From Tubiluchus corallicola (lineage: Eukaryota; Priapulida; Priapulimorpha; Priapulimorphida; Tubiluchidae), in assembly GCA_030141605.1 (NCBI GenBank), contig JAQGDQ010000160.1, positions 62,001 through 126,000 on the forward strand: 64,000 nucleotides of DNA. Direction: 5' to 3'. Positions 15,201 through 46,438 of this stretch are shown here, piece by piece. Made by a program: the position numbers and the translations under genes. How positions within the stretch are numbered: position 1 is the stretch's first letter; every line of letters starts with the position of its first letter. The notes beneath the pieces are model-generated. The model searched no databases. It was not told the DNA's origin and saw nothing but the letters and a program-made list of their open reading frames with translations.

Positions 15201-16135
15201 GCTAAGTGTTCTGTGCTTCGTGTCAGACCCAAGCATAATTTCAGATACAAACTTTGTGGGTCCGAAATTAATCAGCCAACTGAAGTGAAAGATTTAGGCG
15301 TATGGATTTCGAAGGACTTAAAATGGAATAAGCATATAACTAGGATTGAGAAATCAGTAAATGGAGTCATAGGTTTAATCAAATGGGCTGTTCTGTCACT
15401 GTCATTTAAAGTTATAGTCCATCTTTATAAAACATTGACCAAAGCTTGAGTATGCAGCAGTTGTCTGGTCACCGCAGTACACCACCATAGTTAACCAGCT
15501 TCAACAGATTCAGAGACATTGCCTTCGAATTATGACTGATGGACAAGCTGAAGACATTAAACGTGTGTATCAGAGACGCAAAACTATAGATCTCGTCCAT
15601 TGCTTCAAAATTTTGAACGAGTTGACCATTTTTAGTAAAGATGACTTCTTCGTCCCGACTCATCGCCACTATGATCTACGTGAACATTCGATGAAACTGT
15701 TCCAATCCCTGCTGGAATGCCTTGCCAGATGATGTGATTAGTGCCCCAAATGCTTTCAAAAGCAAATTGAGGGCTTAGCGTCAATGTCATGTGACCAGTT
15801 GAGTTATTAAGATTGAAAGGTAAATTTAACTTAAAACTAAAAGTAAACTAAGAATAAGATAAATTTGAAATTACACATAAGGAGAAAATTACTGATCTCA
15901 AACGTGAAAAGTTGTTTGTCTAATAGTTAGTCGTTTCGGTAATTCCATTTGGTAGTTTTTCTTTAGTATAAATAATAATGCTGTAATAATTATATCAGTC
16001 ACAACAGCGAATCATTACTCTACCGTTGACAAACGAAGCGATATGGGCTTACCAATTTGCCGGCTTATTATCACTAACAACGTCCTGCCACGCAGCAAGA
16101 AGTGAAGCTTTGTTTTTCTTTAAATCCACCGACAT
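1554..16135 (-). CDS. DBNL: Drebrin-like protein (DBNL/ABP1/HIP-55), 573 aa, 14 coding exons
   Basis: Actin-binding adaptor that links F-actin to endocytosis through an SH3 domain. Coding exons, 5' to 3': 16053-16135, 13769-13824, 11990-12102, 9951-10025, 9457-9594, 9009-9086, 8581-8667, 7902-8021, 7032-7112, 5797-5943, 4505-4841, 3995-4128, 3439-3571, 1554-1693; 1722 nt, all phases consistent. Residues 1-~130 form an ADF-H domain ([27 protein letters not shown]). Residues ~160-285 are a charged coiled coil rich in E, K, R and Q. Residues 327-438 are Pro/Ser-rich with imperfect REPSPPR repeats. An acidic stretch follows with a YDIP motif near residue 510. The C-terminal SH3 (518-573) shows ALYDY, GWWRG and [10 protein letters not shown]. 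Human DBNL has about 430 aa; the extra length is in the coiled-coil and proline regions. Exon 10 has two in-frame donors 6 nt apart; I chose GTGCGT. Family assignment is very secure; the start rests on homology to the ADF-H N terminus. Confidence 0.95.
6400..6504 (+). repeat. Possible LINE 3' tail with short tandem units
   Basis: An AT-rich stretch with AATAAA-like sequence ends in two to three copies of a 7-bp unit (CATAGTT) at about 6484-6503. Short tandem tails of this sort terminate several LINE families. No reverse transcriptase is visible upstream, so this may be a strongly 5'-truncated copy. It lies in DBNL intron 9. Confidence 0.25.
7215..7770 (+). repeat. Dispersed repeat, uninterrupted copy (DBNL intron 8)
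   Basis: About 550 bp that align, with many substitutions and small indels, to 39465-42020. Shared anchors include GATGATTTTTCA near the start, TTTAAGTTTAAAATTCAAAT, ACACCTCTGAACT, and CTGTGGTAATAATTCTTT followed by TAAGTCAT. The other copy is split by an inserted transposon between the last two anchors, while this copy reads straight through. No terminal inverted repeats or coding potential were recognised, so the repeat class is unknown. Confidence 0.7.
10849..11481. mobile_element. hAT-type nonautonomous element (MITE), 633 bp, in DBNL intron 3
   Basis: The ends form imperfect terminal inverted repeats: CAGGGCTGGATTAA on the left, CAGGGCCAGATTAA when the right end is read inward. The flanking 8-mers, ACTTCTAC at 10841-10848 and ACCTACAC at 11482-11489, match at 5 of 8 positions, as expected of an old 8-bp target duplication. 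CAGGG termini and 8-bp duplications are typical of hAT elements. There is no transposase reading frame. Both ends also carry a direct motif, GTGCTTAGGG(T/C)ACCAA. Confidence 0.65.
12172..12234. repeat. (TA)n microsatellite
   Basis: Pure alternating TA from about 12172 to 12215, a GCAAA-type interruption, then a second short TA run. It lies in DBNL intron 2 just upstream (minus strand) of the exon at 11990-12102. Confidence 0.95.
14369..14550. repeat. Near-perfect 70-bp inverted repeat (hairpin, MITE-like)
   Basis: Arms at 14369-14438 and 14482-14550 are inverted copies with only a few mismatches around a ~43-bp loop. The outer ends read ATTTGACCAAC and its complement, with no clear target duplication. 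It could be a foldback MITE. It lies in DBNL intron 1, about 200 bp upstream of a LINE fragment in the opposite orientation to DBNL. Confidence 0.8.
14751..15780 (+). pseudogene. Decayed LINE reverse transcriptase fragment (Jockey/CR1 group)
   Basis: Translation from 14751 to 15449 shows fingers/palm landmarks of a non-LTR reverse transcriptase: [18 protein letters not shown], a SGIPQGT block, a LIYVDDL segment and CVDDVKIY where the catalytic xADD motif belongs. [14 protein letters not shown] and the thumb follow. The frame breaks near 15449 and again near 15715, where [15 protein letters not shown] (normal C-terminal sequence) appears in another frame. Endonuclease and 5' parts are missing. 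It lies antisense in DBNL intron 1 and is dead. Exact clade is uncertain. Confidence 0.85.
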
Positions 16136-18780: not shown

Positions 18781-21700
18781 TCAAAAATATTGCCACTTGC
18801 CCATAATAGTGTCTTTTACTGCTTCTGCGTACTGTGATGGAAACCAGTAGATCCAATACCGCGAAGCTTCTGTGGGCCCAAGCTGGATACCCTGCACAAA
18901 ATAATGATAATTTTGTCCAAACATGATCATGATAATAGTTATAATACACTCCTTTTAACCTAGTATACTGTTAAAAGTCGATAATGTTAAAAAAATGGAT
19001 CTGAAATGAAATTTATTAACAGCAATTTTGTTAAACATGCAAAAACACTGCTATCTGTTTCCTCATTATGGTACAAAAAGAATGTACCTGTAAAAAATAG
19101 CATTGAAATTTAAAAGAATAAAGTTTATCGTGTGTATTTGCATTTAACTCGAACTTTACAAAAAAAATAATTTCACACAGTGGAAACTGTTGATACCTGC
19201 ATGAATTTTTAGTCAAGGCGCAAAAAAACTCAAACTGAAATATTTTTAAGATACATTTTAAATGCATTTCATAAATATTGAGAACTAACTATTAAGATTA
19301 ATGTCGACAAAGAGGAATTACAAAAAAATCAAAATATAAATACATGTGAATTCCATCGAAAACATTGCATTTTACACAATGTGTATAGAACTGTAATGTT
19401 GTTAGAAATTTGTAGGATCAGCACTTTACCTACCAAAATTTGATATTCTTCATGACCTTCTATAGGCTCACTAACTACCTGTTTTATTGAATTCATTGGT
19501 ACTTTTTCAGTTCGCTCTGAAACAGAAAAACCATACCATCAAAGTCTATCTCATTGCAAGCAAAAGCACAAGACTATGAAGCAAAAGATGCGCTAATTCT
19601 TGATAGTACTGTATTAACTTTTGTAGAAAGTAATTTAAATAGCACATTAAATAATATTCACCAGTATATTATACACTCAACATTACAAAAGAACCAAAAC
19701 ATTGGTACCACTTTAAAAAGAATAACTGGCTTTTTACCATGCATTTTACTAGCTTGAAAATTTGTGGTTTGTTAAATGAATCGCACAGTTTCACATCCCA
19801 GTAGACTGTGTAGGAATTCACTACAATGACTCAAAAAATAAGAAAGAAAGTCTGACAGTCACATTCATATACACGTAAATTACACATAAGTATGTTTGCT
19901 GCATGTTTCATTATCAAAGATAGTCACTCATTATCAAGTCAACTAAAGCTTTAAACTTGTAAGTTTCACAGATAGAAGCTAATGTACTGTAACATTACCA
20001 CACTGCTAAATTTCAATTTTGTAGGACACTTACTTAACATTATTGTAGTTTAATTTTTTTCTGCACCACCCAATCTATACAAAGAGTTGGTACACTCAAA
20101 ACAATATCACTTAAATATTTGACCCAGAACAACTATAAGAAAATTTACTCTAAAAAGTATTTTTTATATGATGACATGTAAAAGTAAAATGTCAGAATGG
20201 ATTTCTGTTAAGACAGTAATGCTAATAAAATGTGCGCTGTGTGTCTCTGTACCTTTTGTTCCAATCCATAACTGATCTGTTTCTAATTTGAAAGTTAGTC
20301 GCACTTTACCTCCTGTTTTGTTCACTCCATACACTGGCACTGGTGGGAGACTTTCCTATTTAAAAGAGCAATATGAATAATGTGATAAAGTTAACAAACA
20401 ACAAGAATAAGCAACATGGCTAATGCCTGCTCATATGCAATGACAACCATTTAAGTTTACATGGCAGTCTAGCTAAGCAATTTACTTATCTGGTTGTAAA
20501 AGGTGCTGTCTTGAATAAGCATTACACCTTCAAAAACTGCTAGTAAAATTGTGACATAATCACCTCAGTTAGTTAAGAAAGTTCTTGTAAAGACACTACA
20601 AGTCAAATTCAATAAATAAAAACAAATAATCCAAAAGTATTACCCATAGTGGGGAGATCTTGCGAACGTATTTTTAATGGTCATGTGTCATGACAAAACC
20701 GTGATGCAAACTCTACCTTCAGTTTATACCTTAAAATTTGGATTTCATGAGCTAACGCATGCATTACAAATAGTTCCTACTTTCTATTTTTTCAAATTTT
20801 TCAAGTTTCACTTTAAGTTTGGTAGGCTTATCACTGTATAAAATGAAATAATCAGTAACACTTTAATAATTATTAATAGTACATTTAATAGACTGTATTA
20901 ATGAAGAGAATTTCTAAAATGAATAATATGTAAATGTTGTAATGAAACTAGTTAAGTATTTTCTTTATCTGTGACCATTTTTTGTTATTTTTCTGTTATT
21001 TTCTGCTCATGGCAAGTCTGTTTTGAAAAATTTAATGTCACTGGCTAATTTTTTTAACTGAAGCTTCTCACAATTTTAAATTTTATTTGGAAAAAAATTA
21101 GCGCAAGACATACTGTATGAAAACTCACAGAAGCCCAAGCTTAAGACTGACCAGGGCCAGGATGATAGTACTGTTAAAGTGTCCACACACATCATTTGTT
21201 AAATATACTGGCAGATTGGAAGTATATTTTCATGCATTTCAGCACACTTTACTAACAGAACTGAATAAGAACTGAATATAAACTTAAACTCAAACAACAC
21301 ACATTCTTATGAAAAACATATCAGAAAATATTGTGCAAACAAAAATATTAAAATTAGTTAACTGATTAGTTGTTATTACCTTACAATTCTTAATTCCAAC
21401 CATTAAATCATCTGGTTTTCCTTTGTCTAAGACTTTTTTATGTATTTTTTGATTACATAATAATTCCTTTTTAGATGACTCTGAAAAATGAAAATATACA
21501 CATGCAAATTATTATAGCTGTACAAATTTACAAGTATATTATTTACTGAAAGACTGATTTTTAGATCTCCCAAACACTCACTTTGCAATTAGCATATCTG
21601 ACACCGTAATATTGTCAGCTAGCCGCACAACACAACTAAACAGATCTTAACAGAGCAACAACATTCTATTATGGCTGATTTTTCTCCCAAAAAATTTCAA

Positions 21701-24700
21701 ATGTGACATTCACCCACATCAGGTCATGTCACTATTTTGGCAACAGGTAAAACGTAAAATCAATACCAGAACAACAGCAAATCAGTATAGAATATAAGAA
21801 GTTTATTTTACAATATACATAACCAATACAACAATACATTAATAATAATAATAATAATACAATAATTATTCATGCATCAAGAATAATATTATGATGGCTA
21901 ATAAAAACCTATTTTCAACATATATAAAAAGGAACATTGGATGGTTTTTTTCCTGCTTTTGTGTGTTTTTGTAAACACCATCATAAATGCAGTGTGGCAA
22001 ACTTCAAACCATTACTAGTAGGGGCAGGACCAAGATCTAGTTCTTTAGCAAGTGTAAAAATCTGGGAAATATTGCTGGCAAATACCCACGCTTGTATCAT
22101 TGTAAAAAGCATACATTCTCCCTGTAAAGTAAAAAGAAGCAGCTAGGCAGTATGGCGAACAAAACATATTTTCGGGCAGTCCCTCACTATTTATTAGCCA
22201 GGCCCAATATTGTGTGTGCGTGCATGTGTGTGTGGCACATATTAAAAACATATTTATTTTCTTGGAGGACTTCAGCTGGACCTCCTTAAATATATCAAAA
22301 ATTTTCATGACAGTTTTTCCAATGTTTACTCTATCAAATTTACTCTAACTCATTATTACTCTATGCCCTTAATTTGGCATTGTTGGCAATGTTGGCATTG
22401 ACTCCAATTGAAACTGAGTTATTTTATTTTTTTCAACTTGTATATTAGCATCTAACAGAAAGTTCTTAAGATACAAATGAGGTGCACAACACAGAGTTTA
22501 TGTACATATCAGCAATGCTTTTAAAGAAATATAATCAGAGTTACAATTACAGATTTCAAATATGAGTGTTTTTAACATAAACAACTTAATTTGTAATAAC
22601 TATGAACTGTTTCAAACAGAGTATTAACTATGTTAACAGTTATTGGAGATAATTAACAACACAAAGATAGGCACCATAATCCAGTAGAGCAAAATCTATT
22701 ATCAAAGAAAAAATGCTGGTAAAAAATGCAAAGAATTTGCATTATAATTGCAAAATAGCTAAAATTCCTAGACTTTAGTTCAAGGCTTTTTAGCAGCAAA
22801 GTCAGGCAGTGAAACCAAAACTGCTGAAAATATTGTAAGAGTATAGCAAATAAACTTCAAGTACTTATAATACAAAACAGTGTACAGATTTCAAAGTCGC
22901 TGGTAAATTACATCTCAAAAATAGCAATGAGTTCGACCCAAACTTGGGTAGCTTATAATACCAGACTGCCAAATTTTAGCAAAACAGTTGAGTTGATAAT
23001 TTTGATTGGGTTGTTCAGGGTCAAAGATCAATTTCAACTCAAAATGTAAGGAGTTGGGCAATCAAACTCATGCAACTTCAGGAAACAAATATCAGTGGAA
23101 GAGTCATTAATCTCGAATGGGTGCTTGAAGGTCAAGGTGAAAAACTGTGAGCTGAGCTACCAATTTTTTGTAAGTTACATTACCAGACAGAACATACTAA
23201 TGAGGTATTTTGTGATGCTAAATGATTGACTTGAATTAGCTAGAGAAAAACACAAGCCAAGTCAGTGAAGACATAACTGTAAGTCCAAAAAACAAGATAA
23301 AGAATGAATGCAGGCATAATCTGATCAGACAACACTAAAGTGTAGGTACACTGTGATTTATAACAACCTTGATTTTGCAACTGAAAAATTCCTAAATAAT
23401 AGTTGACTTTAGTTTGTATAATCACAGACTGCAAAAAGTTTAGATCTGGTGATGCTTATAAATTTTAAGCAAATTTTAATAAACTTTTAGGCCAGCACAT
23501 TTCTTTGCATGGCAAAACCCTTTGTCTAGACCAGTCTAGTACCTAGATGAAAAATAACTAACGTGATTGACTGCTTTGACTGAGTGTATTAGCACAAGGA
23601 ATTACAAAAAATTGGACAAATAATTTGCTTAAGTTATAAAGTAACTACTTATTTATAATTTGACAGCTAATTGTACAGCTAATTAATAATCTAGCATATC
23701 AAAAATAATAGACAAACTACATGAAGAATACAAATGCACTGAAACCTTGAGCTTAAACATGCACTAGTTTTTGAAAGCCCTAAATTGTCAGAAAAATTTT
23801 CTTTAATTAGTATTAAACTGTTGTACATGTCTTTTCATATCATTAACAGTTCTATTTATGTTTCTTTGACTTCTAAACATGTTTTATGTAAAAGCATTAA
23901 TCCACCTATTATCATTTCAGTAATTACATATACAAACACGACAAAATTACAAAAAATACTCAAAAAAGCTGTCAAAATTTAATGTACTTAGTATCTTAAT
24001 ACATTAGTAGTAAACCAAAATAATATAACAATAACTTATACAGCAAAACAATATTAATACAAATATTATTAACAATTAATTAAAAACAAAGAAATGCCTG
24101 AGGTTTTAAAAGTAATAGTGAACAAATTAAAAAGATACTGGAATTGAGTTTGCAAAAGTTAAATTACTATACTGCAACTTCATATCCTCACTTGATATAC
24201 CCTACAGGAGAATGCCTAGTAACCATTTTAGCCATAATAACCACCTCTAGCATAACCAGGGTCATAATTAACGAAACCTCCCGGGAAATCACTTCCAGGA
24301 TAAGAAGGAAAGCCTCTGCCATACCCACAGTAGCCTCCAACACCAGTGTAGCTTTTCCAACCATAAATGCTTCCATAACGACCATAGCATCCATGGCCCA
24401 AACCTCCATAAGGCGTTCCACCATAACCAACAGCACTCCAGTACACATCCACATAAGGACGACTACCAATGTTAGATGCATAACGGTTAACATTCCAAGA
24501 CTGAGATAAACTCAATATCTACAAGTAAAAAATACCAATAATTACAATAATGGCACTTTTTATATTATCTGGTAAGAGTGTGTAAAATACCATATAGAGT
24601 TACATGTATGAAACAGTGCATGCTGCTGAAAAGTGCCACGAAATTCAGCAAGCCGACTCTAGCTTGATTATAAATATAGTATGCCAACTGATGGTTTTTT

Positions 24701-27700
24701 TATTTCTGTAAGTTTTGACTTATAAATCATTTCTGACCTCAACAGAATTAGTACTATATCATCTCATCATGTACTTTAGTATATTTTGAATTAGAGCAAA
24801 TTATTTGCATTGTACATGTATTTGTTTTTAACCCTCTGCTAATACACTGTGAACAATAATAACAATAAAAATGCATGCTACTGAAAAAAGAAGCATGCTA
24901 TAGCAAAATGTAGATCATCTGAGACAATAAATAAATTACCATTAGTTTGATCTTTGATGCATGGGATGTAGTCCAGAGAAATTTTCAGATTACATTTAAG
25001 CATATTGCTAAACTTATCCTATCCAAAGATCATGAATATGCTCAAGAAATAAATCAATAAGGAATAATTAACAGACATAATCACTAGATCCGTATTTAAT
25101 AAGAGCCACAAATTTTTCTTGAGATTTATACCATATTCACACAGACATGTTAAGAGGAATACCTCACCTAGCCAAACAAGTGGATACAAAGTATAAAGAC
25201 GTGATTTATTAAAAAACATTGAGCACCCAGGACATAAATTATACTTTTACATCTCCATGAAACTTAATAATTTGCATTTATTTCATGCTCTTGAGGAAAA
25301 CATACTTACCGAAATTAGAAGCAAAAATACAAAATGAAGATTAGGAGCCATCATGAATTGAAAGACCTGCAAAAATGAAAATACTTTAAACATGTATATA
25401 TGTAATGATTTAGAATTTGGTATGATACAATAAAAACATGCAATTACGACGAAACATCGTTTCTAGCATATAAATGTAGGCCCTAGCTATTTTACAATGG
25501 AAACATTTATGATTTGGTTTTCTTGGAAAAAAGAACCTACATAAAGCTAAAAATTAAATAGCAGACATTTTATAAAAAATATAAATGGATGCTCAGCATA
25601 AAAATTTATTGCGCGGGTTTCCAATACGTATAGCTTAGCTAAGTATTTATGATTTTATGACACAAAATAAACAAATAAACATAAAATTCTTACCTGCACT
25701 GAACTCGTCAACCACAAATATCAAACAACTGTTTTCTGTGACAAAACTAGCTTATAAAACTCTCAGATAGAAAGGAAGACACTTATTAATTAAAGGAGTT
25801 GAAGCATGACGTACATCAGGTGTTGTCCTGAATTTCAATTGATCAAATCTTTATTGCATTCAAGGTCTTTGATCAAATGACAAAAATGTTGGAGCTGTTT
25901 ACTAGTTTACCTTGACCAATATTTTAACTTGAAAGTTTTGAAACGGTCACACAGAATGCTGTCAGCAATAAAATAATGAAACATGTAACTGTACTTTTAT
26001 GCGACGACTGCTAACAGCATACCAGTGAAAGGAAATTCAGGGAACAAATTTCCGCACCAATCATAAACAACAAACAAAAAGGCTGATTAACTCAGAAGAA
26101 GGCTTTTATTATTAATCTCTACATTTTGGTTTATAATGATGCCTCGAATAGTATCTTTACAACACATCAACAATATATCACCATTTTGTGACATGAATTA
26201 TAAGTAAGTCGATTCACATTGTACCTTCTTTGGTACTGATTGATAGGACTAACGGCTAATTAACCTTGACTTCAAGGTTGTCTTGCACACTTGCTTCACT
26301 TTCTATACACAAGAAAAGTATTTTACAATTTAACTTGCTGTTTGCATTATTTACGAGATTGTTCTGGTTTGTTCTATTTTCATTTTTCTGGTAAAAACTG
26401 ATTACATAATTAGCAGCTGGAGTGTAAGAGCAATGTAATCATCATTAACTTGGATAAGATCTTAAAAATTTAGGATCGTCCAAGCCAAATGCAAAAATGG
26501 CACGTATAACCCAAATATAGATACGTACTTTATCAGTTAAGCTTTACTCGGTGAAGAGTGGCCGGAATACAGTGGTTAACACAAAGCTGATGACATAGTT
26601 GATATAATGGTAACATCTTTTACAAAGAACTTATAAGAGCTAGCAGAATATATGAAGGGTAGTTATTTGGTAATTTTTTTTGAAATTTTCATTTAATTTA
26701 GACCTTGAAATTTCTACGGCATCATATTTTTTATAGACTATTTACTATAACTTATAGTATTTAACTTATACGCTTTTTAACTATAGTGCAAATACTGAAT
26801 TACTCAACTATTCTCTAATTGTATAACTAATTAATACAAACTTTATGAAACAAGCCTTGGCAACAAGTTTCATTATCCTTGACTAAGAAATTCTAATTGC
26901 TTCACAGGTGATTTAGCATAAGATGGAAACAACAGAAACAAAAATTAAAGCCTAACAATAATCAATAAGTAGAAACAGATGTCTTAGTCAGAATTTTATC
27001 TATAGATTCTGGTTTTCTATTCGTCCAATAAAAATATTATCGAGTTTAAAAGTTAATTAAACCTGCAAGTAGATTTCTAAATTCTACACACAGCATCATC
27101 ACAGTTACTATAATTTAATTGTCTAGGTGTGGGGTTGCATAAGAAAATGCGGTAAAAACAGCTAAAAAAGCAGTAAGGAGGAGCTACACAGCTAACAAAA
27201 CTAAACAGCCTCCGATGTATCTTTCAGAAAAATAAAGCAGGAATAAAGAACAGCACATATCCGTTATAATGAACCATTGAGAGTTATCTTTCTATTCAAC
27301 TAAATGCTAGCATCTCTATAAAAACATATTTACAGTGCATTTGCAGTTGAAATATGCTATACTACACATTTAACTGATCAGATTTCATGGGTGCATTGTT
27401 TTCTATGCATAGATTATAGCATGATTAAAAGTAGAAGTGGTGCTTCTTGTGAATGACTGTCACCTCTACACTCTACTACATTTATCAGGTAACATTTGTT
27501 TCACTATGAAACCTTGAATGCAAATGATCTGCACACTAGTAGTGTGCAAATTGTGCCTGCAACTACCGAATTTTGACAAAATTAACAAAATATCAAAACA
27601 ATCTACAGCATTGTAAACCAATGAGTAATACAGTGCCAAATTTTGGTTATTAATGCAAATAACAAGATTTATCTTGTAAAAGATGAAATAAATGTACCAC

Positions 27701-30700
27701 ACAGCAAGTTCCTCCCTTAACAAAAACCACCATACATTTTAAAATTAAAAATTTTTCCACACTTAAACCAGGAGAAAAAACAGTAACACTTGAAGCAAAA
27801 CTGTAGAGGTGTGTGTGTGTGTGTGTCAATGTGCTTGCAAGCGTGCGTGCGTGCATGCATGCTTGCATGTGAGAGAGAGCGAGAGAGCAAGAGGCATCAG
27901 GAATGTTATCCATGTTAATTGTAAAAAAACACAAAAATAAAACAAAACAAAGAACCTCAGGTCAAGTTCAAGAAGTGAACTCACTAATGTTGACTGTAAA
28001 GATGATTAAAACAGTACAATGAAGGCTCGTGTTAAGTTCATCAACAGTGCAACAAAGACAGAAAAAGCTGGAAAATTGAATTTTGTTAAACTAGCTATGA
28101 CTACAAAATCACCATACTTGCACTTCAATGCAAACTGTTGCAGCTACTGCAATAACATAGCAATAGTTATTTTTTACATTTAGCTGTTAATAAACAAATG
28201 ATTTATAAGTGTAAGCAATAAATCTCATGAAACATTTAAGTAATTTTAGCTAAGCATTACGTGACTTTTACTTTGGACTCATAAGCATACATTCACAGCC
28301 ATTTCTACTGATGCATATAACCACGTCTTTATTTAAGGATGACTGATTTAACATTGTATCTTACCGTAACTTATTAGCATCAATAAACAAAGATTTTGTG
28401 CCACTTTTGGTCTTGCACAACAAGAAGCATGATGCTTGTTTCATCTTCATTTCAGCTCTCCAAAAAAATTAAAATGCAGAAACATGCAAAATTTAGCCAT
28501 TAAAGACATTTCCAGATCTTATTTGGGAAGCTTGTGGTATCAATTACATTTAATATTAATAGACTTGATAATGGACTTAACAGACTTGACCATAAAATAG
28601 TAAAGAGTTACTGTAGAGCACAGATGCCTGCATTTATTTATTTTTAATACAGCACTTTTAAGTTTGCAACTGAAAAAGGATTGTTAACGCAAATATGAGT
28701 TGGGTGACAATGGGTTACTGGAGTTAACAGGCAATGAGTATACCACACGATAAAACACAAGAAAGGGCTTACTTATGAACATTTAGCCATAATAGCTACC
28801 GCCATAACCAGAGGAATAACTAGTACCATATCCTCTGCCACCTAATCCGCCATAACTGCCATACGATCCCAAACCGCCTAACCCCCCAGTACCTCCAAGT
28901 CCATATCCACTGCTGTAATAGCCTCCACCTAAACCGCCAGATCCACCATATCCGCCAAGACCACCAAATCCACTACGGAAATTTCCAAATCCTCCTCCAA
29001 GTCCACCATAGCTACTATAGCCTCCTATTCCACCACCAAGACCCCCATATCCTGTACTGTAGCTCCTACCAAATCCACCAAGCCCACCAAGGCCTCCATA
29101 TCCGGTACTGTAGCTGGTACCAATTCCACCAAGGCCTCCATATCCACCACTACGGAAATTTCCAAATCCTCCTCCAAGTCCACCATAGCTGCTATAACCT
29201 CCTATTCCTCCACCCAGGCCCCCATATCCTGTACTGTAGCTCCTGCCGAATCCGCCAAGCCCACCAAGGCCTCCATATCCAGTACCATAGCTTCTACCAA
29301 ATCCACCAAGCCCACCAAGGCCTCCATATCCAGTACTATAGCTGCTACCAAATCCACCAAGCCCACCAAGGCCTCCATATCCACCACTACGGAAATTTCC
29401 AAATCCGCCTCCAAGTCCACCATAGCCACTACTACGGAAATTTCCAAATCCTCCTCCAAGTCCACCATAGCCACTATAACCTCCTATTCCTCCACCCAGG
29501 CCCCCATATCCACCACTACGGAAATTTCCCAATCCTCCTCCAAGTCCACCATAGCTACTATAACCACCTATTCCACCACCCATACCCCCATATCCTGTGC
29601 TGTAGCTCCTACCAAATCCACCTAGCCCACCAAGGCCTCCATAACCACTACTGTAGCTGCTACCAAAACCACCGAGTCCACCACCATATCCACCGCGGTT
29701 ATATACTCCACTACCCAGACCACCATAACCAGTGCTATAAGTTCTGCCATATCCACCAAGACCACCATAGCCAGTGCCATAGCTTCTGCCATATCCACCA
29801 AGCCCACCAAGACCAGTAGTATAAGTTGCACCATATCGGTTACCACCAAGCCCACCAAGACCAGTAGTATAAGTTGCACCATACCGGTTACCACCAAGTC
29901 CACCATATCCAGTATTATAAGTTGTACCATACCCACGATTGCCAAGGCCACCTAAGCCAGTTGTAGTGGTATATGTTGTGCGAGTGCCGGTAGTAGGCAC
30001 ACTATAACGAGTGCTAGTAGTTGATAAGGATGATGAAGGCTGCACATACTGACTGCCTAAACCAGTAGAACTAGTATATGTGGTGCGAGAACTGGTAGAA
30101 GGTGCAACATAACTGGCGCTACTACTGATTCCAGTGCCTGTGCCTGTGCTGGACAAGGAGTTCGTGTTGCTTTGCCATCCAGCAAAAGATGAAACAATCA
30201 ACTGGAACAAAAATGTTCTAAATCACTTCTTTCTACAATGCAAACACACCTCAACCATCATAATTAATAATATTTGTATCCATATCAAAAAGATATGCAC
30301 AGCACTGAACATGATGTGATGCTTAAAACTGTCTAATGGTATTTAAAGCATTTTACAAACAAATAAGCGTGTCACTTACAAAAAAAAACATATTTCAAAT
30401 TGTAGATCTTTGTCTCCTCAAGTACAAAGAGGTTAACATGCCAATAGTTCTACTAATTTAGTTACAAGGGTTCCTCCAATCTAACTTAAGTTGCAAGTTG
30501 AAGAAAATTATAAATCATAGAGATGTCTGATTTGTCAAATATCGGAAAATAAGATTAAATTGTGCTACAATCCAGCGAGCAAGAAGTAATTATGACTATT
30601 GAATTTGAAAGCTCTTCAACGACTTGATTTACGCTTTGCACACTCTCAGAATCCAGTAAAGTTGAAAACAGCGGGAAGATATCAAATATATAGAAAGAGG

Positions 30701-33700
30701 TGGGTGGCTAATGGAATTAATACAAATTAACGGAGGTCAATAAAATAGAAAAACCATGGTGCTTGGAAAAAACTATAAGTCTTCCATAAAGAGAATTGTA
30801 ATATATAATTTGTACTTACACCCAGCAGAACAATGAGTCTTAAATTCTGCTTCATCTTCACTTATCTAAAAATAAAATTTAAATCAACAGTGGTATAAAA
30901 CCTACAATGGTACAGAAACAGAAAATTGATACTTTTCAGCAAGTTTTAATTTAAGTAATTTACCCATTCATTAACTTTTTGTAAGTGAAGGCCTGAAAAC
31001 GTTGTTTGGGTTACAAAAAACAAAGGTGTCATATTAATTCCTTCAAGTAAAATTTCTACATCTACACTAATTTGTCAAGCTAGTCTGAAATAATCATAGA
31101 AAATAGGGAGTTTGAAAACAAATGTCTCTACTTGGAAAGCACAAAAAAAGTTCTCCAAACTTCAGTTTCAATCTTACTTCTAACAGCACTAAAAAGCAAG
31201 TAATCATTGCAATGGGAATGTTTAACACTTGATTTTTAGCTTGTTAATATAAAATATATTAAAAAATATTAAAGATCCAGTAAAATTTTGGACATACCAA
31301 TGTTATAAAACATGACTGATTATTTACAAATTTCAGTTCTTTTCTGTAAACGCCGAATTACTTAGATTCCAAACATTATACCTAAATCAAAATGTACAAA
31401 AAAAAATTCATACCTTGTAATTTGCCTCCTGAAGGGACGTGGTCAGGCTCACAGCAGAAGCAGAACGGTCAACCAATAAAATCAATGACCAAATCGCTCT
31501 TTTAAACTGATGTTATACATGGGTGATGCACATACAAGGTTAAACAACATTAAAAATTTCTTCTAGGCAGTAATAGCACCATGGGTTAAATGCAAGGTGA
31601 TACGGAAAACATCAAATGACAATTGCCTGCAGGCAAACCACTACAGATACCAGAGGACTAGAGACTAACAACAGGGAAAATGGCTGCATAAGTTCTATGT
31701 CTGAAAAACATACCAACTCAATCACTGACTGACTAATCAACTGAGTAATTGAAACACTGACTGACTAACTGAATGATTCCCTATATATAATAGTTCACTG
31801 GTTTACTAACTGGATGAGTGATGAATCAATTGATCACTAGCTAATTGGCTAAACTGAAGACTGACAAACTGATCACATACTAACTGAATGCCTGGCAGGC
31901 TGAGTATGGTGCAGTGATTGCTGGACGATTGACTGTTTGACTGACTGAGTGCCTGATAAGCTTACTTTCTAGCTGCTCAACTGCCAGACTAACTGTATTC
32001 TCAATGGAGAGTTACAGTGCTCACTTTACTGGTTGGTAACTGACTGAGTAAGTGATGATTGTCTACTGAATAAGTGACTGACTGACTGACTAACTAACTA
32101 ACTTAATGACTGACTTTCTACATTATTGATTCAGAAAGTGATTTATGACTAATGATTGACTGGTTTGTTGTATGATTGACTTATATGTTCGTTTGTGGTG
32201 AATGGCTGAAGAACCTGACTAAATCACTGACTGTGTGTTAGTTTGTTGAGAAAGTAAATGACAGTGATCGGTTTCTTGGCTTTGTGCCCCATTGGTTCGT
32301 TCTTCTGGCTAGCTAGCTGATTTACTAAATTTTTCTTGTTTGTTTAAATTGAAAGTCTGACAGTTGCTTGATTTATCGATTAGTGGCTTTCTCCCTGACA
32401 ACACCGATCATGTTCTATTTTTTGCTCTTAATAATATTTTATGTATTCAGATAAAATATAATCTTTATTTAGCTTATAAATCCTCTACCTTGGTATCGAA
32501 TTATGACCACACATTACCGCAAACTAGTGTCCAATTTACTTACGAAGTTCAATGACAAAGCAAAGAAGCAACATCACCGTCCACACAAGAATTTAATGAA
32601 ATTATTGTCGTCAATTCAAAAGTGAACAAAAAAACAAATTGCCTTGATGAGGAAAAAGCTTTGCACATATAAAATAAACTAAAGAACCACACAGATACGT
32701 TTGATTCTCTGGTTTACCTTGGTAATGTGGTAATTATGAAAAAAAATATAAAAAAAATTATGAAGATAGGCGAAAAAACTCAATTGAATAATAATATAAA
32801 CATGGTCACTTGATTTTTTTAAATGAATATCTAACACAAGTTCCAAAAACATCAACATTAAAACAGATTATTTTATTCAGCAATCTAAATTGAAACTCTT
32901 AACTAGGTAAGACAGGCAAACGGCGATCTCTAACATTTTACATTACAATGTAGTAATTATGTCAGCGAAAGTGCACAGGTTGAAAGCAAATTAACCCTGA
33001 ACAATAACATTCAGAATTCTGACAGCTATCGCAATGACCGATCTGCACTCATAATTCAAAAAGAACTACTAATTCGCCGTCGACGAATCTATATTACGTG
33101 CCTAGAATTTAAATGCACCACCATCTAGTCTGAAAGTTTCCTTTTCAGTATACAAGTGCACAACAAAGGTAATTATGATGATAAATAAATAACCTTGAAA
33201 AACATAACAGTATTCACAGATGCTTACGTACACAGCCTTGACAGATGAATGACAATTTATTTTGTTTAATTTCAGCACAGCTTTCACTTCTTTCTTCTCT
33301 GTACATCGTGGCTTGGAGTATACAAACTGAATTTCTCAAACAGCGTATTTTATTTGTTTTATTACAGTTTACAGTATGGATAGGGGTTAAGCATAAATGA
33401 CCGCTTTACCCCCCCCCCCCCCGATCTTCTCTGGATGCTTGAATCATTTTGAATTTTCTAGTAGGTGGTGGCGCTAACGATACAATCCGGGGAACACAAT
33501 ATTAGTGTGTTCTTCTTTGTACAACGAATAGTGTCAGGTTCTCTCAAAAATCCAATCTCACTACGTGCTTACCGTTATGATAAGTGGTAAGCATATTTAA
33601 GTCAAGAAAAACCGAGGTATGCAAAACACATTTTATTAGTCATACAGGGAATATAGGCTACTTCAACGACTTCTCATCTTTCATCAGCTCGTCTCTATAT

Positions 33701-36700
33701 TAATTTCATTATTCTATACAGAGATAATGTTTAATGACAATAACAAACCCAATTATTAAAAAATCCAACAATAAAGAAAAAAAAGTACGCGCCTAAGACC
33801 CTTTCTTTTCTTTGTTGGATTTACTAAACAGCATTAGATAAGCAAATGTACTTAGCGTAAACTAAATGAATGTATTGTGTGATACTCCAATTCTAACTTT
33901 TCAGCGTTCAGGTGTGTCTTTTGATTAGTATGCAAAGTCAGCTATATCGCTAGCCTTGAATTACTGATTCCGGTAGTAACGCAAGAAACCATAAAATAGT
34001 TTAAACATCTGTATTGAGAAAATTCATGCAAGCAGAACAAGAAACGCCCATTGCCGGTGGTAAACCACTTTTATGTACTTTGTGATCAAGCTCATTGCAG
34101 GACCGCTACGTTTTCAAGCGAAATAATAATAACGCAACAACCGAACTAGAAAATCCTGTGAACAGCACACAAAGCGGAATTTGGAATATCAGTTAACACT
34201 TACTCCCCCATTTAGTAAACTGACAGTGTAAGTCAAGGTCGGCTGTCTAGGAAAACTTACTTCCGAGAAAAATGCTATTAAAACACATCAAATTTAAATC
34301 AGTCAAAATGTCTAAGCGTTGATCAGATCAGAGCTCATGAGCGCTGGAACTCAATAGTGGAAGTCCACCTAACCGGAACTCATTAAGACAGCCGTGTCCA
34401 GATGCGAGCTTACTAGTGCTGGAGCTGACTAACAGCAACTCACCAGGCAGGAGCTTACTAGAGTTGGAGCTCACTAACAGCAACTCACCAGGCAGGAGCT
34501 TACTAGAGTTGGAGCTCACTAACAGCAACTCACCAGGCTGGAGCTTACTAGAGTTGGAGCTCACTAACAGCAACTCACCAGACAGGAGCTTACTAGAGTT
34601 GGAGCTCACTAACAGCAACTCACCAGGCAGGAGCTTACTAGAGTTGGAGCTCACTAACAGCAACTCACCAGACAGGAGCTTACTAGAGTTGGAGCTCACT
34701 AACAGCAACTCACCAGGCAGGAGCTTACTAGAGTTGGAGCTCACTAACAGCAACTCACCAGGCAGGAGCTTACTAGAGTTGGAGCTCACTAACAGCAACT
34801 CACCAGGCAGGAGCTTACTAGAGTTGGAGCTCACTAACAGCAACTCACCAGGCAGGAGCTTACTAGAGTTGGAGCTCACTAACAGCAACTCACCAGGCAG
34901 GAGCTTACTAGAGTTGGAGCTCACTAACAGCAACTCACCACGCAGGAGCTTACTAGAGTTGGAGCTCACTAACAGCAACTCACCAGGCAGGAGCTTACTA
35001 GAGTTGGAGCTCACTAACAGCAACTCACCAGGCTAGAGCTTACTAGAGTTGGAGCTCACTAACAGCAACTCACCAGGCAGGAGCTTACTAGAGTTGGAGC
35101 TCACAAACAGCAGCTCACCAGACAGGAGCTTAATAAGACTACAGCTCACGAGCCAACACTACCAACAACCCACCTATTTAGTTACAAACCAGGCTTAGCA
35201 TTTACTTAACTTTGGTCGCTAAGCACGCACAGTGTCCACTCAGTTATTCACTTATGAAGAGAAATAACAAATTTATTTGTGTTCCAGACAGTCTCACTGT
35301 GTTATTATGCCATTTCCACTGCACATTTTTACTCCATTTTTCTTACATAAGTTATAAGAAAGTTTATTATAGTTAAAATAATTGTGGCATGAATGGCCAA
35401 CTGCCTATTCGCACATCGTTACAAGAAAACACTAGCAGTCACAAAACACGACTGTAGGTATTATTGTTATTATTATTATTATTGTTGTTGTTGTTATAAC
35501 TAATGACTATAGGTAGTCATTAACAGACATGTTAGCATAACAAGCTCTGCTTGAAATTCTATTTACAGAAAGCTCATTCACAGCCTCTGCAGATGGGAAT
35601 AGATCCAGCACATTATTAACAAAAATAAATCATTAACTGAATGAAGGGTTGGAAAAATTGCGAGTCAACCAGGACTTGAACCCAGAATCTTGTGCTTTCC
35701 AGCACTTGTTCTACCATCTGAGTTACAAGATTAAGTGTGACAGGGCATTGAACGTTGGCTCACATAAGGTACAGCCCAGTGAGTTCTAGTCAACACACAG
35801 TAAGTTGTTAACAAACTGCTGGTTAAAAAAAGAGTGCATTATATTTAGGTCTAGCATCAAAAGACCAGAAAAAAATCGCGGAAAAATGTACGTACAACCA
35901 TATTCAAAGTTTCATTTGTATCTTGTAAACAGTTTATTTTCGGAAGTCCGTCTTATTCTGGACTCCTGAAAATGAACTGTGCAAATATAATGTCCAGCAC
36001 AGCTCAATAGCAATTTTTTGTATATCTGAGCACGATAAACAAACACTTATTTGATGCAAACGAATACATTCGAAACATATAATCATAAACCTTTTCTGTT
36101 CAATAGAAGATCAAATCAAGATCAGTGTCCCTATGAAGACCCTGAGTATTGTTTAGAAGAACTACTGTAAGTCTACATGTCAATACAAGTGCTTATTTTT
36201 CTAGTTTACAGACATTTGTTCTGTATTCTTTTAATCAATTGCTTGCAATGCATTAAAGAAGCTTTATTACTAATTTTATTTATGTATATTTGTAAGTTAT
36301 TGGAATTGTGTAAATTTTTTTTAACTTTATCATGCTTTGCATAACAAATAAAGCATAAAAACCTAAGACAGTTATACAGTTGCTTAACTGTTTCTTTGTT
36401 ACTTTTGTAACTTAGTCAACTAAATGTCGGCGATAAAATTACAACTTTTTACAAAACAAACAATAATTTTTTCTTAGCATAGTGATGCTGATAAATATAC
36501 ACATTCTGCCAGCTAAATTTGAAAATATCATAACATATCAATACCATCTTATTTGAAAAACTCAGTTTACCATGACTTATGACCATAACATTTTAAAAAT
36601 TGAGCTGAATTTTCGTGTATGAAAAATGAAAACTTCGTGGCAAGGTGCTCAACAGCTTTTTTAATCCAGTTCAACCAAAATCCAGCATTCAAAGGCATAT

Positions 36701-39700
36701 TAAAAATGTTTGTGGAGTGACTGGAATCTAACTCGTTATCATGAATACCTTTAAAAATGAGCCACTCATTGAACTCAATCTCACGAGATATTTACTCGCA
36801 TGTATCCACTCTCTCATGATATCACCCAGCTAGAAGCAGTTTAAAGATAAACTAACTTCTGTTAGTTCAAACATACATTATAATACCAACGTTCCAAATA
36901 ATGGTAGTAATACTATATTACGCACAATGTTATAACATGCATTGACTAGAAAAAGAATGTGTTATAAGCTGGTGCAATTTAGCACAGTAGATCAAATCCA
37001 TTAATCCCACAACTTCAATACTAAATTAGAAAATTTGAAAAATTTTGCAAATGAGTCGTTCTTACTTTTACGGCACTGTAAAAGCAGTGTCAATGCAGTG
37101 CACAGTTTGTGTGAATAGTTCAATCACTTATGTTTCTACTAATTAGCTTTTTTAGATACAGGTAAAATAACTTATTTACATTTATTCTAGTTAAAACTAC
37201 TTTCACTGATTTACAACTAAAAAATTTATTATAATTTTCAAGAACTTATTAGATGAATTTGCTGAAAAATGTGCACTGGCTGCATAACACTAATGAGAGA
37301 AGATCACTTCAATGTATATTTTTGAATGCTCACTACTTGCTAACCAAACTGGTGGCTGTCGTTATAAGTTTTTTCTAACAATTGCATTAAATTTTTTACA
37401 CATAATACAAATAATTATATAAGTGAATGTTATAAGAAAGTGCACCACTAAATATAAAATTTTGAAGAAAAGCCCATAAGGATCAAAAGTAATTTCCAAC
37501 AATTTGTGTTATGGAAAAACCTAAACGTACAAGAATTTTGAGGACTGAAAATTACAAAGAAGCTGCCAGTAAAAAAAAAATTGCTATAACAAATTTACAG
37601 ACAATTTCTGATATGTGCTCAGAATAATAATTCTGATCAATTAACTGATAAATAATACAATACTATACACAAAAAATAAAATGTGCAAGCCACAAAACAT
37701 TTATGTAAGCAACAAAGCGAGAAATGCGTTCCTACCTTGCGCTTTATCTTCCGCACGGATTTTTTCAGGATTTGCACTGCTAATGGCTGCAACGTCATTG
37801 AGGAGCGATCCCACTAACATTAGTTTGGCACCTTTCGAAACTTTTAACTCACGTAACGTTTGACTGTCTTTCGCTAAACCTTTGAACATCAACTTTTGCA
37901 TGGTTGGAGTAACACCTAATAAATAAAATACATTTTCGTGTGGAACACTTTAGTACATCATTCCACAAGATCAAAAAATGTTAACGCTCTATATAATACA
38001 TAAACACATCTACTGTAAATGTAAAACATCATTTACAAAGGAACAATAATTTTAGTATATCTAAGCCCACAAATTTATAGCTTTGTTTAAGGGCAAATGT
38101 ATTTATTAGTTTACTTTGTTACTGCAACAAGCAAAGAAAAAACACGTACAAAGATATGAATAATAGCACATTTAATAGCATGCTGAACACCACTGTAACA
38201 TTTCGACAAGAACATACCTGATTTTCACAGATTCTGAGAATTGTAAATTGAAACATATTTGTAATAAAAAAAAACAGAACTGCCAGTGAAAAATCAGCAA
38301 CATAACAGGCAGTTATCACCAATGAACAATGATATGTGTTAACACTTCCTGACAGATAACTCATTTAACTATGTATGGATTACAGACTTTAGAGAACGTA
38401 ATATCATGAACAGCCAACAAAAATAAATCCCATAATCGGGGACGGACACAGCAGTAAAAAAAATCAAAGAAAAATTCCCATAATTGACTAATTTGAACCA
38501 ATTCATGCTAAGGCTTGTTCTTCGTATATGTATAATCTATGTACTGCATCTAAATTAAACTGTTTATATATTAGCACTTTTGCATAAGGCTTTAATTTTT
38601 GCATATATTATTTATACCTGACTGACGCTGCTGTAATAGGAAAAGTGAGCATTTTCATTGTTTTATTTAATTGGCTGTGACAACATTATAAGAGCAAAAC
38701 CAAGTTAGAATGGCATTACTACTGAAAGTGAAAATGTACTTAAGTATAATATATTTTTACCTGTTAATGTGTGTACGTGGTTTTTTAACTGTGAAACAGT
38801 ATCGTCTAAAGGAAATATCACATCATATTTTTTCTTGTTAAATACAACTTTGAAGTCAACAGTCTCTTTGGGCAATGAGCTTCCTTCACCCTGGCTTACA
38901 TCAGTACTGCTACCTGGACAGTGGAAACAAAAAAATTTATTTGCTGGCTGTAATGAGTTTTACACAATTTGGCATTGTATCCAGATTGAACTAAAAAAGT
39001 GCTAATTTAATAAGCAAAATACAATTATGCCAACTGTAAGATTGCTAAAAGAAGATTAACATATTATATTAACAATGTAACAATGCAGATATTATAAATG
39101 GAACTTTAAAATTTGTCTAACATTGATAGCATTCTTTGTTGAAACTGAAACCATCGCCTACACCACTAATGAAGTATGCTGACTTCTTAAACAGTACTTT
39201 TTTCAGAACTAGAAGTGAGAATTATTTAGACACGTAAGTTGAGTCATGTATTTCTTAAGCAATGATTGATTATGCTTCTTAAAAAATCAAGAAGATGCAA
39301 AGCAAAAGATAAGTAGTGTAGCAAAAGATAAGTAGTTGCAACAATACAAATAGCATTATATCATTTTTGAGTGTCTACTACAAATCTAGTGCCTAAACAA
39401 GGAACAGGCAATGTTAATGAACAACCTAAAACTCTTGTAATAAACAGACAGAAAGTGATTGTTAAAAGCTTAATAGGAACACAGGATGATTTTTCATATC
39501 CTACACCATTTTAAAGTACAGTAAAAAGTATACGACGCCTATAATAATGTCAAATAATAATTCTCATAATTAAGTAAGAGATTAAAAGCTTACTTAACAG
39601 CTGAAAAGTGCAATTAATGATGGTATCACAAATGAACAATAGCGCAAATATTTGACAAGCGTCTTTATGAAAGAGAAAACGGAAATACAGTGCTATTGTA

Positions 39701-42700
39701 CAAGATTCTCTGCGACATAAAAAAACCTGGCAAATTTTTAAGTTTAAAATTCAAATTTATGCTCACACATGAGATCTCTAACATGTGCACTATGTCACAA
39801 CCGAACACCTCTGAACTGAGAGATACATACAGTACCCCATTTTTGTGCAGGTGCCGATGCCCATCTCACTAGCAAACAGCGAAAAAAACTATGACATGCG
39901 AAAATTACATTTCTGTGGTAATAATTCTTTCACCTAAGTCAGGGGTGTGCAAATGATCTCACTCCGCCTCATTAAAGTTTCCCGCAATTCCTGCGGGCCA
40001 CAGGCAGTTTGATGAAGGAGCTAAGTACAGTAGGACCTAATAACGATTTTTTTGCATCTGGTCTGAGCACATCATTACTACTACACTCAAGAAACTATAT
40101 TAGAAGTTATTAAAATTTATATCAAAAACCATATATTTCTACTTTCATGACAGATAGTGGTAATTTCATTACAATGCATATTAGTAATGTGTATCACACA
40201 GTCTGTGTAGTACAGTGCATATTAACCTGCCTTGACTCGATGTTCTTCTTCAATCTTCCTCTTTTTTCTTATCCATGTTTCTGATCTATAAGAACACTAC
40301 ACCTGATGAAACGATGAAACAGCCACTGATCCAGGCGTGTACTACTGAGCCTAATCAGAAACTAAAATCTGGGAATCCCCCTATATCAGGTGTGACCACA
40401 CCTTTTCAGCTTGCTGGCTACTTACAAATTGAACTGCCCAGTCGTCTTCTTGGTCATAGTAGGTGGATCATTTTGACTTGGTAATTTAATATTTTTTTTA
40501 TAATTTATTTATACAGTAGTCACCGCTTAATAGACTCATAGTTAATAGACTCAATTGCTTAATTGACTCAAAAACGCCTGGAAAGGGCCGCTTCTATTCA
40601 AATATACATAACAACTATCGGTAATTGACTCAAATAACTTCTCTTAATTGACTCAATATTTTTCCTTCACGTACTTAAAATAAGATATTTGTATGTGCCC
40701 AAAGAGCCTTTCCTAGTTTATGTCATCTTTACTTCCTTTTTGTGCATTATATATGTAGAAACAATCATGTTAAGTACTGTTTTGTTTGTAAACAGGTACG
40801 TTTATCAATCCGTGCGCTAGCGTAGCGGTTTTGCTTTGAATCTGTTACACACTCGCCCACTGCAATTAATCTCGTTACTCAAAGAATTTCTGGAAGCTAA
40901 ACATTTAATCACTTGCCTAGCTGTTTCCTTTTGATGCTCTAGTTGCAAATCACGCTTTCAGAGTTAATAGTCAAAGCTCCAGGTACAGTATAATCAGCTG
41001 GTATTCCTTGTGACTTACAAGAGTAAACATCGTACAGCAAATAAGAGCAATGTAAGTGAGCGATTCAGAACTGTCTTAGTCGCACACAAAAACAGATTTT
41101 CAACGTTTTTATAATTACTAGAATTTTGTGGGCCAACTTCTTCGCAGGAAAATGAAGCAGCAAATAAACAGACTTAGAAAAGTCTGTGATTTAGAAAAGT
41201 ATACTTTTTAACTTATTGTTAATTCACTTATAAATATAAATTGATATTTTAAAATGTTTTTTCTAATTTTTAACTGCTCAGAATTTAGGCATTACTTCGT
41301 TTCTAAAATTGATTAAAAGCCCTTGCATTGCATAGTAAGCTGATGACTCATACTTCTATACCAGTAATACTACACCCGTCGGTTAATTGGGTCAAAACAC
41401 GTCGGTCCTAACGTGAGTCTATTGAGCGGCGACTACTGTATATAATTTATTTTGTAAAATAACTAAGTCAAAATGATCTACCTGCTGAAGGCGACTAAGA
41501 AGACGACTGGGCAGATCAACAGCCCCGATAATAAAAGCCTAGAGATTGGCTGATTGGTCTTCATACCAGCCAATCAGATTGCTTCTCGAGTTTCTTGCAC
41601 ATTTGAACGTTTCAATGGCGGCTTCTGTGATAGTTTGATGTGTTCTGTGATTACATCGCTTTTTTGTGTTCCAAGTGAGTAACATGTAATTCGTCATGTC
41701 CGATAGTGACATTGAGTGACAACCGTCTTGTAAGGGTTAATGCCATCTGATCTAGTGGAAAAAACTACCTGCACTATCTTTGGGATCGTAGTGCAGACTT
41801 CAGCTGGATACACTCAATTCACTGCCGGGCCATGCTTTCATTAGGTTGACAAATCTCTTCGCAGGCCGCACAAAATCTCTCGGCGGGCCGCACTTTGCAC
41901 ACCCCTGATCTAAGTCATTCTTGAAAAAATAGGGCGTTCCCTTTTTTCAATATTTAATAGGAATGATTATTTTGAGCTACAATTTAAGATTGGGTCCAGT
42001 TTTCCTTTAATGTAGGATGAAAATGGATAGCAACCGTCTGGTAATGATAAATGTTTAGAAACAACTAGTTAATCGAAAACTACATGATTACAACGAATGT
42101 GACTACAACAATAATATGAAGTTAAAAGCTTACTTTCTTCCCCAGACATCTGTTTCTCAGACAGCCTAACATCTCCCACACATTCAGGCTGATTTTTTAT
42201 ATCTTCTCCATCACAGACCTCACCTTGAATTTCTTCACTTTCTGCTTTGGTATCATCACACTTCACGTCAATCTCTGGAAGTTTTTGTAAAAAAGAACAA
42301 TTTGACTAAATTTTGAAGGTTTAATGCAAAAAAATTAAAACCGAAACATTTTTTAAATTACCAAAAAATGTCTAACTATCCAAGTATATGCTTGTATTTT
42401 TTTCTGTTGTTTCATGAGAGAAAACATAGCCATTATTCACATGAAACTACATTTTGTTACCTGTGTTTCAGTGGCATACAGAAAGATCTTTTAGTGAGAC
42501 CTACATCTCCCCATGTGAATTATTTTGCGATGGTACAACTATTTAAAGGCATGAATGATGCTCAAGACTATATTAAGCTGCAAATGGCATTAACCAGCTG
42601 AACACATGGTGTAAACTTTAATAAGGACTGGACTTTAATAAGAGAACTCTAGCACTCTTCTTCAAAAGCACCCAAGTTCAAAGCTTTTAGACTTCTAGAA

Positions 42701-44160: not shown

Positions 44161-46438
44161 ATGCCAAAAGTAAGAAGAAGTCGAAAACCTCCACCGGAGG
44201 GGTGGGAACTCATTGAACCAACATTGGACGAATTGGAAAGGAAAATGAGAGAGGGTAGGTCTGGTGCCATACACAAGTCATTGTACTGTACTCTGTAGTT
44301 AGCTTTAGTGTATATCATGCTTATATAATAAATTAATCCTTACTGCTTTATAGTAAAAGGGAAATACACACTCATAAATACATTGACTGCATAAACTCGA
44401 CTTATAATAGGACCACAGTAGCTCGATTATTGGTTTTAGATAACTGAAAGTGGGCTTCTTAGTAACTGTACATATAATACATAGCGTTTACAGTGCTTTA
44501 AGTGAAATTACAAGGTCTTCTGTATAATTTACGGTTCCCTTATTGTTTTCGCTTATCGTTCCCTTATTGTACGATAAACCATTACTTCTGCCAAGGCGTA
44601 TCAATTATCGATTAAGTAGACAAATACGAAAAGGTGACTGACTGTATATTTAGGATCACTGTTACTATGTGTTGTAAAAAATGTAAAATTTTTTATCATT
44701 TATGCACTTATTATCATATCTTAACCAGTAAAGAAGGTTTTTTCTTGTTTCGTGTATCTTCTGTGCAGTATCGTGTATTATCATCAGCTGGACCCGTATT
44801 ATAAACAACTGTATAAACATTTATAATTAAATTATGTAGTCATTTAGGTATGGATTTAATATTATATAGGTCCTTATAGATTAATCCATACAAACAATGA
44901 GTCTTGTGTGAATTTGTTTCTTTAGTTGTGCTTCCTCACAGATCTTAATATTTATTAAGCCAGGCTGACAATTTGACTGAGAAGGCCTTATTGGGTTAAA
45001 CTGTACACATTAATATTTTAATTTATTATTTATCCCAATTGTCGTAAATAAAGCATTAAAAAAGACATGACAATGAGAAGCATATGGAATATTTGGGTAA
45101 TACTATTATTTAGGTGTTACGTGTAGTGATAGTGACACCACATTAATCCTCTTTGTTAAAACCAAAACTGAGTGAAGCTTTTGCATGAGCTAGTCTTTTT
45201 ATTTTGTCGGTTAGTAAATGTTGCGATTCATTATTAATGTTATATTAATTTTTGTTATTTCAGTGGAGACTGAGCCACATGAAGGGAAGCGCAAAGTGGA
45301 AGGACTGTGGCCAATATTTAAACTACATCATCAGCGATCTCGATATGTATATGATCTTTTCTACAAACGCAAAGCGATAACTAGAGGTTTGTGCTTTATC
45401 TATTTTTACAGTTTCCAGATACACACATAAATTATAGTAATAAGTATTTCAAGAGTAAAATGTAATGTTAAGTTACAAGCAGGCCATGTGTGACAGCTAT
45501 GAAAACACTCAAAATAAGTTGCTTTCTGATGACTGACACGCCCTTGTTTCACTTCTTAAAATGATTCTTAATTACTAGTTAATTTAAATTGAAGTCTGTG
45601 ATTCTTGTAACCTTGTAACACAGAGGAAAAGACTTGACAAAACATAACAAGGACAGATTTTTATTCGAGTATGATATGGTACTGTAGGCCCACATAGAGA
45701 AAATTTGCAAAAAACATGATGTAGTAATTTATTCTGATTGCCCTTGTATCATGTTTTTTAATTTCCTCAATTTTCTTGATATTTTGAACAATTACTATGT
45801 TTGAATAATTTATGCCAATTTGGTTGCCCGACTCATATACATGCATCCATAAAAAACTATTATTAATTAGCTATTTTTGGTTATTTAGAATTGTACGAGT
45901 ATTGTCTCAAAGAAGGCATAGCAGATAAAAACTTGATAGCTAAATGGAAGAAGCAAGGTTATGAAAATCTGTGCTGTTTACGATGTATACAAACACGCGA
46001 TACAAACTATGGGGCCAATTGCATTTGCAGGGTACCAAAGAGCAAACTAGAGGAGGTAAGATATTTACCTGTGGTGTTCACCACTCATTACAAGATCTAC
46101 TGCTAATGTTGACTGGTTGTGGTAGAACAGGAACGTAATCTATAATCAAAAATAGTCCTGTAAGACACCTAACTGTTGATGTATCCTATAATCTTAGCTA
46201 TGTTCGGATGCATATACACCTTCACTAGCCAGATTCGTCTCTTAACTGTCGCAGTCAAAATCTTCTTAACTGTCACAGTCAAGCGTTGATAATTTAGCTG
46301 TTGCCCCTATTAATGTGCTTCGCTTATACAATATAAATAATGGTAAAACAATCAATTTGTTTGATTTGACTTTTTCGTTTGTTGTAGGGACGGATTGTAG
46401 AATGCGTGCACTGTGGTTGTAGAGGATGCTCTGGTTGA
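44161..46438 (+). CDS. BUD31: BUD31 homologue (G10 protein), spliceosome component, 144 aa, 4 exons
   Basis: Nuclear pre-mRNA splicing factor of the activated spliceosome (U5/NTC-associated). Exons 44161-44254, 45264-45386, 45889-46055, 46388-46438; 435 nt, phases consistent. It starts [16 protein letters not shown] and continues [40 protein letters not shown], then [17 protein letters not shown]. It ends with the Cys-rich zinc-binding tail [12 protein letters not shown]. Length equals the human protein (144 aa). The Cys pairs CCLRC, CIC and CxxCGC are all present. Start is fixed by the invariant N terminus. It is convergent with the TPM-domain gene. Confidence 0.97.

Follow-up and report, generated by a model that had tools for sequence, protein, structure and literature searches.

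An intron of UBFD1 that appears to house two same-strand genes for putative secreted, glycine-rich structural proteins

Does one intron of the conserved gene UBFD1 hold two complete genes for secreted structural proteins on the host's own strand, or are the apparent guests exons of UBFD1, decayed copies, or the product of a wrong join in the assembly? The locus lies in a window of 64,000 bases, the whole stretch that we analysed (contig C1022, bases 62001–126000; genome 343.5 Mb in 2344 contigs). Transcripts apart, the arrangement described by the original prediction was confirmed at the level of the DNA. We consider it very probable that the locus is a case of same-strand nesting, in which UBFD1 hosts two independent, tandemly related guests (here g1 and g2) with their own promoters and secreted products. 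The features are collected in Table 1. Splice sites were scored with a hand-entered generic consensus matrix, whose training was not on this species.

Table 1. Features of the UBFD1 locus and its two guests, in window positions; a slash marks a splice junction.
Feature	Position	Strand	Remark
UBFD1 host gene	18781–44163	-	seven coding exons placed within 18781–42274
UBFD1 coding exon, acidic N-terminal part	42134–42274	-	open, in phase with next exon
UBFD1 coding exon, ubiquitin-like domain, first part	38761–38913	-	
UBFD1 coding exon, ubiquitin-like domain, second part	37736–37915	-	upstream of nesting intron; donor AAG/GTAGGA
UBFD1 nesting intron, 16,255 bases	21481–37735	-	GT-AG, phase 1
g2 TATA-like box, TTTAAAA	31500–31506	-	sequence; function inferred
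g2 exon 1, non-coding	31414–31475	-	donor AAG/GTATGA; 5' end inferred about 30 bases past the TATA-like box
g2 exon 2, 46 nt	30820–30865	-	ATG 30855; first 12 codons, putative signal peptide start
g2 exon 3, 1419 nt	28783–30201	-	remainder of Gly/Tyr-rich protein and stop; open frame, pN/pS
g2 likely poly(A) signal, AATAAA	28637–28642	-	about 140 bases past stop; function inferred
g1 TATA-like box, TTATAA	25752–25757	-	function inferred
g1 exon 1, non-coding	25694–25727	-	donor CAG/GTAAGA, top-scoring donor of the locus; 5' end inferred
g1 exon 2, 57 nt	25310–25366	-	ATG 25354, second ATG 25351; first part of putative signal peptide
g1 exon 3, 291 nt	24228–24518	-	remainder of Gly/Tyr-rich protein and stop
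UBFD1 coding exon	21380–21480	-	downstream of nesting intron; acceptor TTTTTCAG/AGTCAT
UBFD1 coding exon, C-terminal PH-like domain	20253–20355	-	
UBFD1 coding exon, C-terminal PH-like domain	19434–19516	-	
UBFD1 last coding exon and stop	18781–18891	-	ends ...DTIMGKWQYF, stop

The identity of the host as UBFD1 was borne out. On translation, the seven exons formed one stop-free frame running to ...EGHEEYQILGIQLGPTEASRYWIYWFPSQYAEAVKDTIMGKWQYF and a stop codon, with every junction GT-AG and in phase. A Pfam search found the domains in the proper order, the ubiquitin-like PF00240 (E 1.1e-14) followed by PF25343, PH_UBFD1_C (E 2e-51). The protein also matched 1v86 (9e-25), which we take to be the ubiquitin-like domain of mouse UBFD1. 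The gene was single-copy: all strong genome-wide matches were these same exons, and one weak match lay elsewhere (E 0.001, 26% identity). The first host exon of the original prediction fared less well. Upstream of 42274 we found no convincing ATG exon, that is, no candidate combining a good donor with a plausible sequence, and it was on that upstream exon that the numbering of the exons around the intron as 4 and 5 was based. The 5' exon of UBFD1 should lie between 42274 and the start of BUD31 at 44164. This splicing-factor gene (44164–46103, plus strand) stands head to head with UBFD1, and the two may have a promoter region in common. Another UBFD1 intron carries an inverted-repeat element of about 1 kb (40458–41519), whose arms of 27–30 bases are 87–93% complementary.

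The nesting intron had exactly the predicted bounds, and its flanking exons joined in phase through a split glutamate codon (G/AG), to which exon 37736–37915 supplies one base and which exon 21380–21480 completes. Both guests lay wholly inside it, on the minus strand like the host. The sense strand of the intron contained 77 donor-like and 50 acceptor-like sites scoring at least 6 on the generic matrix, and AATAAA occurred 26 times against 14 expected. YAGGTRAG sites, as used in recursive splicing, numbered only two, one of them the donor of g1 exon 1. A mobile-element insertion was rejected as the origin of the nesting, the intron outside the guests being unique except for a single copy of a dispersed repeat that lies upstream of g2. 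A genome search likewise found no copies of the guest flanks elsewhere, this short repeat excepted. The repeat copy itself (33362–33555) includes a C run and has at least 39 further matches across the genome, which are 72–83% identical to it. The intron also holds a minisatellite (34406–35132) with 16 copies of a 45-base unit that are 97% alike. Because the unit length is divisible by three, the array stays open on both strands, in frames of 231 and 234 amino acids that are probably not genes.

On its open frame and its substitution pattern, g2 is clearly a coding sequence. The predicted protein has 484 amino acids (41% Gly, 13% Ser, 12% Tyr). The last exon of g2 has an uninterrupted frame of 473 codons, whereas the maximum in 300 composition-matched first-order simulations was 188. 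When 42-base stretches of this exon were matched with one another, each of the 1404 pairs was offset by a multiple of three (1404:0:0). Single changes between the repeat copies comprised 203 synonymous and 61 non-synonymous ones, giving a pN/pS of 0.11 in the coding frame against values of 2.7 and 1.7 for the two remaining sense frames; we treat this comparison as a strong pattern carrying no p-value, because the compared pairs are overlapping and non-independent. One antisense frame reached 0.18; the coding sense frame was the lowest, and it is the frame with a start codon, a putative signal peptide and splice sites. The acceptor of g2 exon 2 scored poorly, at 1.1 bits on the generic matrix.

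For g1, which has no repeats and hence leaves the substitution test to g2, the case for coding is made by architecture and composition. The predicted protein has 111 amino acids (22% Gly, 14% Tyr), and on the generic matrix its donors scored 11.5 and 9.2 and its acceptors 12.0 and 5.9. The two guests are laid out alike: each has a non-coding exon 1, an ATG 10–12 bases past the exon 2 acceptor, a phase-0 intron within the putative signal peptide, and a single long last exon. Both proteins end in YYG, and the ends of the two coding sequences were 77% identical in DNA over 44 bases (E 3e-5). Similarity over the whole proteins was weak (E 0.15). These likenesses suggest that g1 and g2 are probably an old tandem pair that arose by duplication. 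Genome searches found no further copies of the guests elsewhere; relatives were absent from Pfam for both guests and, for g1, from PDB as well. Both proteins are of low complexity. The genome gave no match to the domains of arthropod cuticle (PF00379), molluscan haemocyanin (PF14830), trematode eggshell (PF08034) or annelid linker (PF16915) proteins, negatives that carry little weight since no control gave a signal, and none to mitochondrial COX1.

Silk-like structural proteins have been defined by a signal peptide, the lack of a transmembrane segment and at least 25% glycine within 80 residues (PMC4944945). Glycine per 80 residues was 30% in g1 and 55% in g2. The N-termini were hydrophobic, with 11-residue Kyte-Doolittle maxima of 3.04 and 2.86, and plausible cleavage sites were judged by eye. 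Judged by hydropathy, the mature proteins have no transmembrane segment (19-residue maxima of 0.23 for g1 and 0.35 for g2). By this definition both guests would count as silk-like structural proteins, their signal peptides being putative and read by eye, and both products are predicted to be secreted. Like the known members of the class, which include the glycine-rich proteins of shell, byssus, eggshell and tube (PMC4944945), the guests are glycine-rich, repetitive and lineage-specific; they differ in that we found no primary-sequence relative for them. Membership of the class is a matter of composition and not of descent, and such proteins have evolved on many occasions; therefore, the label says 'secreted structural protein' and nothing further.

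How, then, could UBFD1 be expressed across this intron? We propose that transcription of the host would run through the 16.3 kb, which would house two separate transcription units. On the motifs present, each guest would have its own TATA-type promoter, three exons to be spliced and its own poly(A) signal, and would encode a secreted Gly/Tyr-rich, silk-like structural protein. Most likely, UBFD1 is expressed broadly, whereas the guests serve a single secretory tissue or stage. Exon structure, phases, orientation, the single copy and the coding character of g2 can be read directly from the sequence; independent promoters and poly(A) use are what we infer for the guests. Their promoters, 5' ends and poly(A) sites were read from motifs of a kind that is common in the AT-rich DNA here (GC content about 33%).

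The guests are unusable as host exons because inclusion of either exon 2, or splicing of exon 37736–37915 to either exon 3, brings stop codons into the host frame. It follows that the host must skip exon 2 of both guests, a burden of the kind that the original prediction had described for internal splice and poly(A) sites. The burden is real because g1 exon 2 makes a well-formed cassette exon: its acceptor (12.0) and its donor (9.2) both outscore the host acceptor at 21480 (7.5 on the same matrix), and its inclusion would lead to a host-frame stop nine codons on. It is not special, however, in an intron with as many donor-like, acceptor-like and AATAAA sites as counted above. Long introns routinely tolerate decoy splice and poly(A) sites. 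The host pre-mRNA would thus splice over the whole region, the splice and poly(A) sites of the guests being ignored like the intron's other decoys.

The same strong sites raise the question of whether the guest exons could instead be alternative or regulatory exons of UBFD1, with an exon 2 as poison cassette or an exon 3 as alternative last exon. The early stop that inclusion of g1 exon 2 would bring does resemble that of a poison exon, and the high scores of its splice sites also favour this reading. The guests, however, have in-frame starts and putative signal peptides of their own, and the host phase would destroy their proteins. Moreover, the signature of selection on the g2 repeat array lies in the guest frame and not in the host frame, and each guest begins with an upstream exon that has no usable acceptor role and is accompanied by a TATA-like box. 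We therefore regard this explanation as very unlikely. We give just as little credence to a functional coupling of the guest exons to their host, in which guest transcription or inclusion of the strong g1 exon 2 in UBFD1 pre-mRNA would, in the secretory tissue, switch UBFD1 off through a premature stop or early polyadenylation. If true, such a coupling would make the nesting a regulatory device instead of a passive address.

Decay or a lack of coding function in one guest or in both, with g1 in particular as a relic of duplication, would fit the shortness and uniqueness of g1, its lack of relatives in Pfam or PDB, and the fact that ATTAAA is the only poly(A)-type motif downstream of it. Against this stand the intact frame of g1, its good splice sites and an architecture that matches g2, which itself is clearly coding; decay seems quite improbable. 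Extremely unlikely, in our judgement, is a wrong join of the UBFD1 halves or of the guest block. The contigs of this assembly are moderate in size, and we found no support for such an artefact: the window contains no N and the contig is gap-free, the UBFD1 exons occur once each in the right order, orientation and phase, and the intron flanks have no match elsewhere apart from the short repeat. In particular, the genome search returned these UBFD1 exons and one weak match, which makes a chimera of two loci improbable and speaks against the misassembly that the original prediction had named as a refutation. Its claim of two complete guests on the host strand stands, in the form of gene models with splice sites, TATA-like motifs and signal-peptide-like starts.

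Nesting of independent guests has known counterparts. In Drosophila, a pupal cuticle protein gene with its own intron lies within an intron of the broadly used gene Gart. The UBFD1 locus resembles that pair in having structural-protein genes with introns inside an intron of a broad gene; it differs in having two guests and in their strand, the Drosophila guest being on the opposite strand and encoding a different protein. Among protein-coding genes of human and mouse, 4.3–4.4% are in nested structures, and the partners are on the same strand in 76 of 296 simple nested pairs in human and 55 of 248 in mouse, or 22–26% (PMC8467205). Internal genes tend to be more tissue-specific and external genes broader (PMC8467205). 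The present case is like the same-strand pairs of human, mouse and Drosophila in that the internal genes lie within one intron of the external gene, but unlike the simple pairs, with their single internal gene, it has two internal genes, apparently tandem relatives and both intron-bearing (Assis 2021, PMC8467205). Same-strand nesting and the combination of a broad host with a specialised guest are both documented (PMC8467205), and we therefore read the locus as ordinary nesting of a well-known type; the arrangement holds, and the surprise first attached to it was overstated. A literature search on UBFD1 as a nesting host returned nothing relevant. Nested genes are known to disturb their hosts by causing introns to be retained, exonization and cryptic polyadenylation (PMC3192792).

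The general view of nested genes is unchanged by this locus, to which the presence of two related guests in one intron lends some added interest. It offers a clean case of two genes for putative secreted proteins, probably derived in tandem, on the same strand within one intron of a conserved gene. As such it bears on two questions: how transcripts with long introns pass over whole genes inside them, and how broadly expressed genes come to host new genes for structural proteins. The strong, frame-breaking exon 2 of g1 would provide a direct readout of interference between host and guest.

Elsewhere in the window, the minus strand carries membrane-protein exons at 47379–50743, which match MOLO1 weakly (E 0.009), and P-type ATPase exons at 59662–63600, with hydrolase domain matches and, by eye, of the copper-transporting type. 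Two fragments of LINE-like reverse transcriptase (RVT_1), at 14721–15729 and 55375–56456, are interrupted by frameshifts or stop codons.
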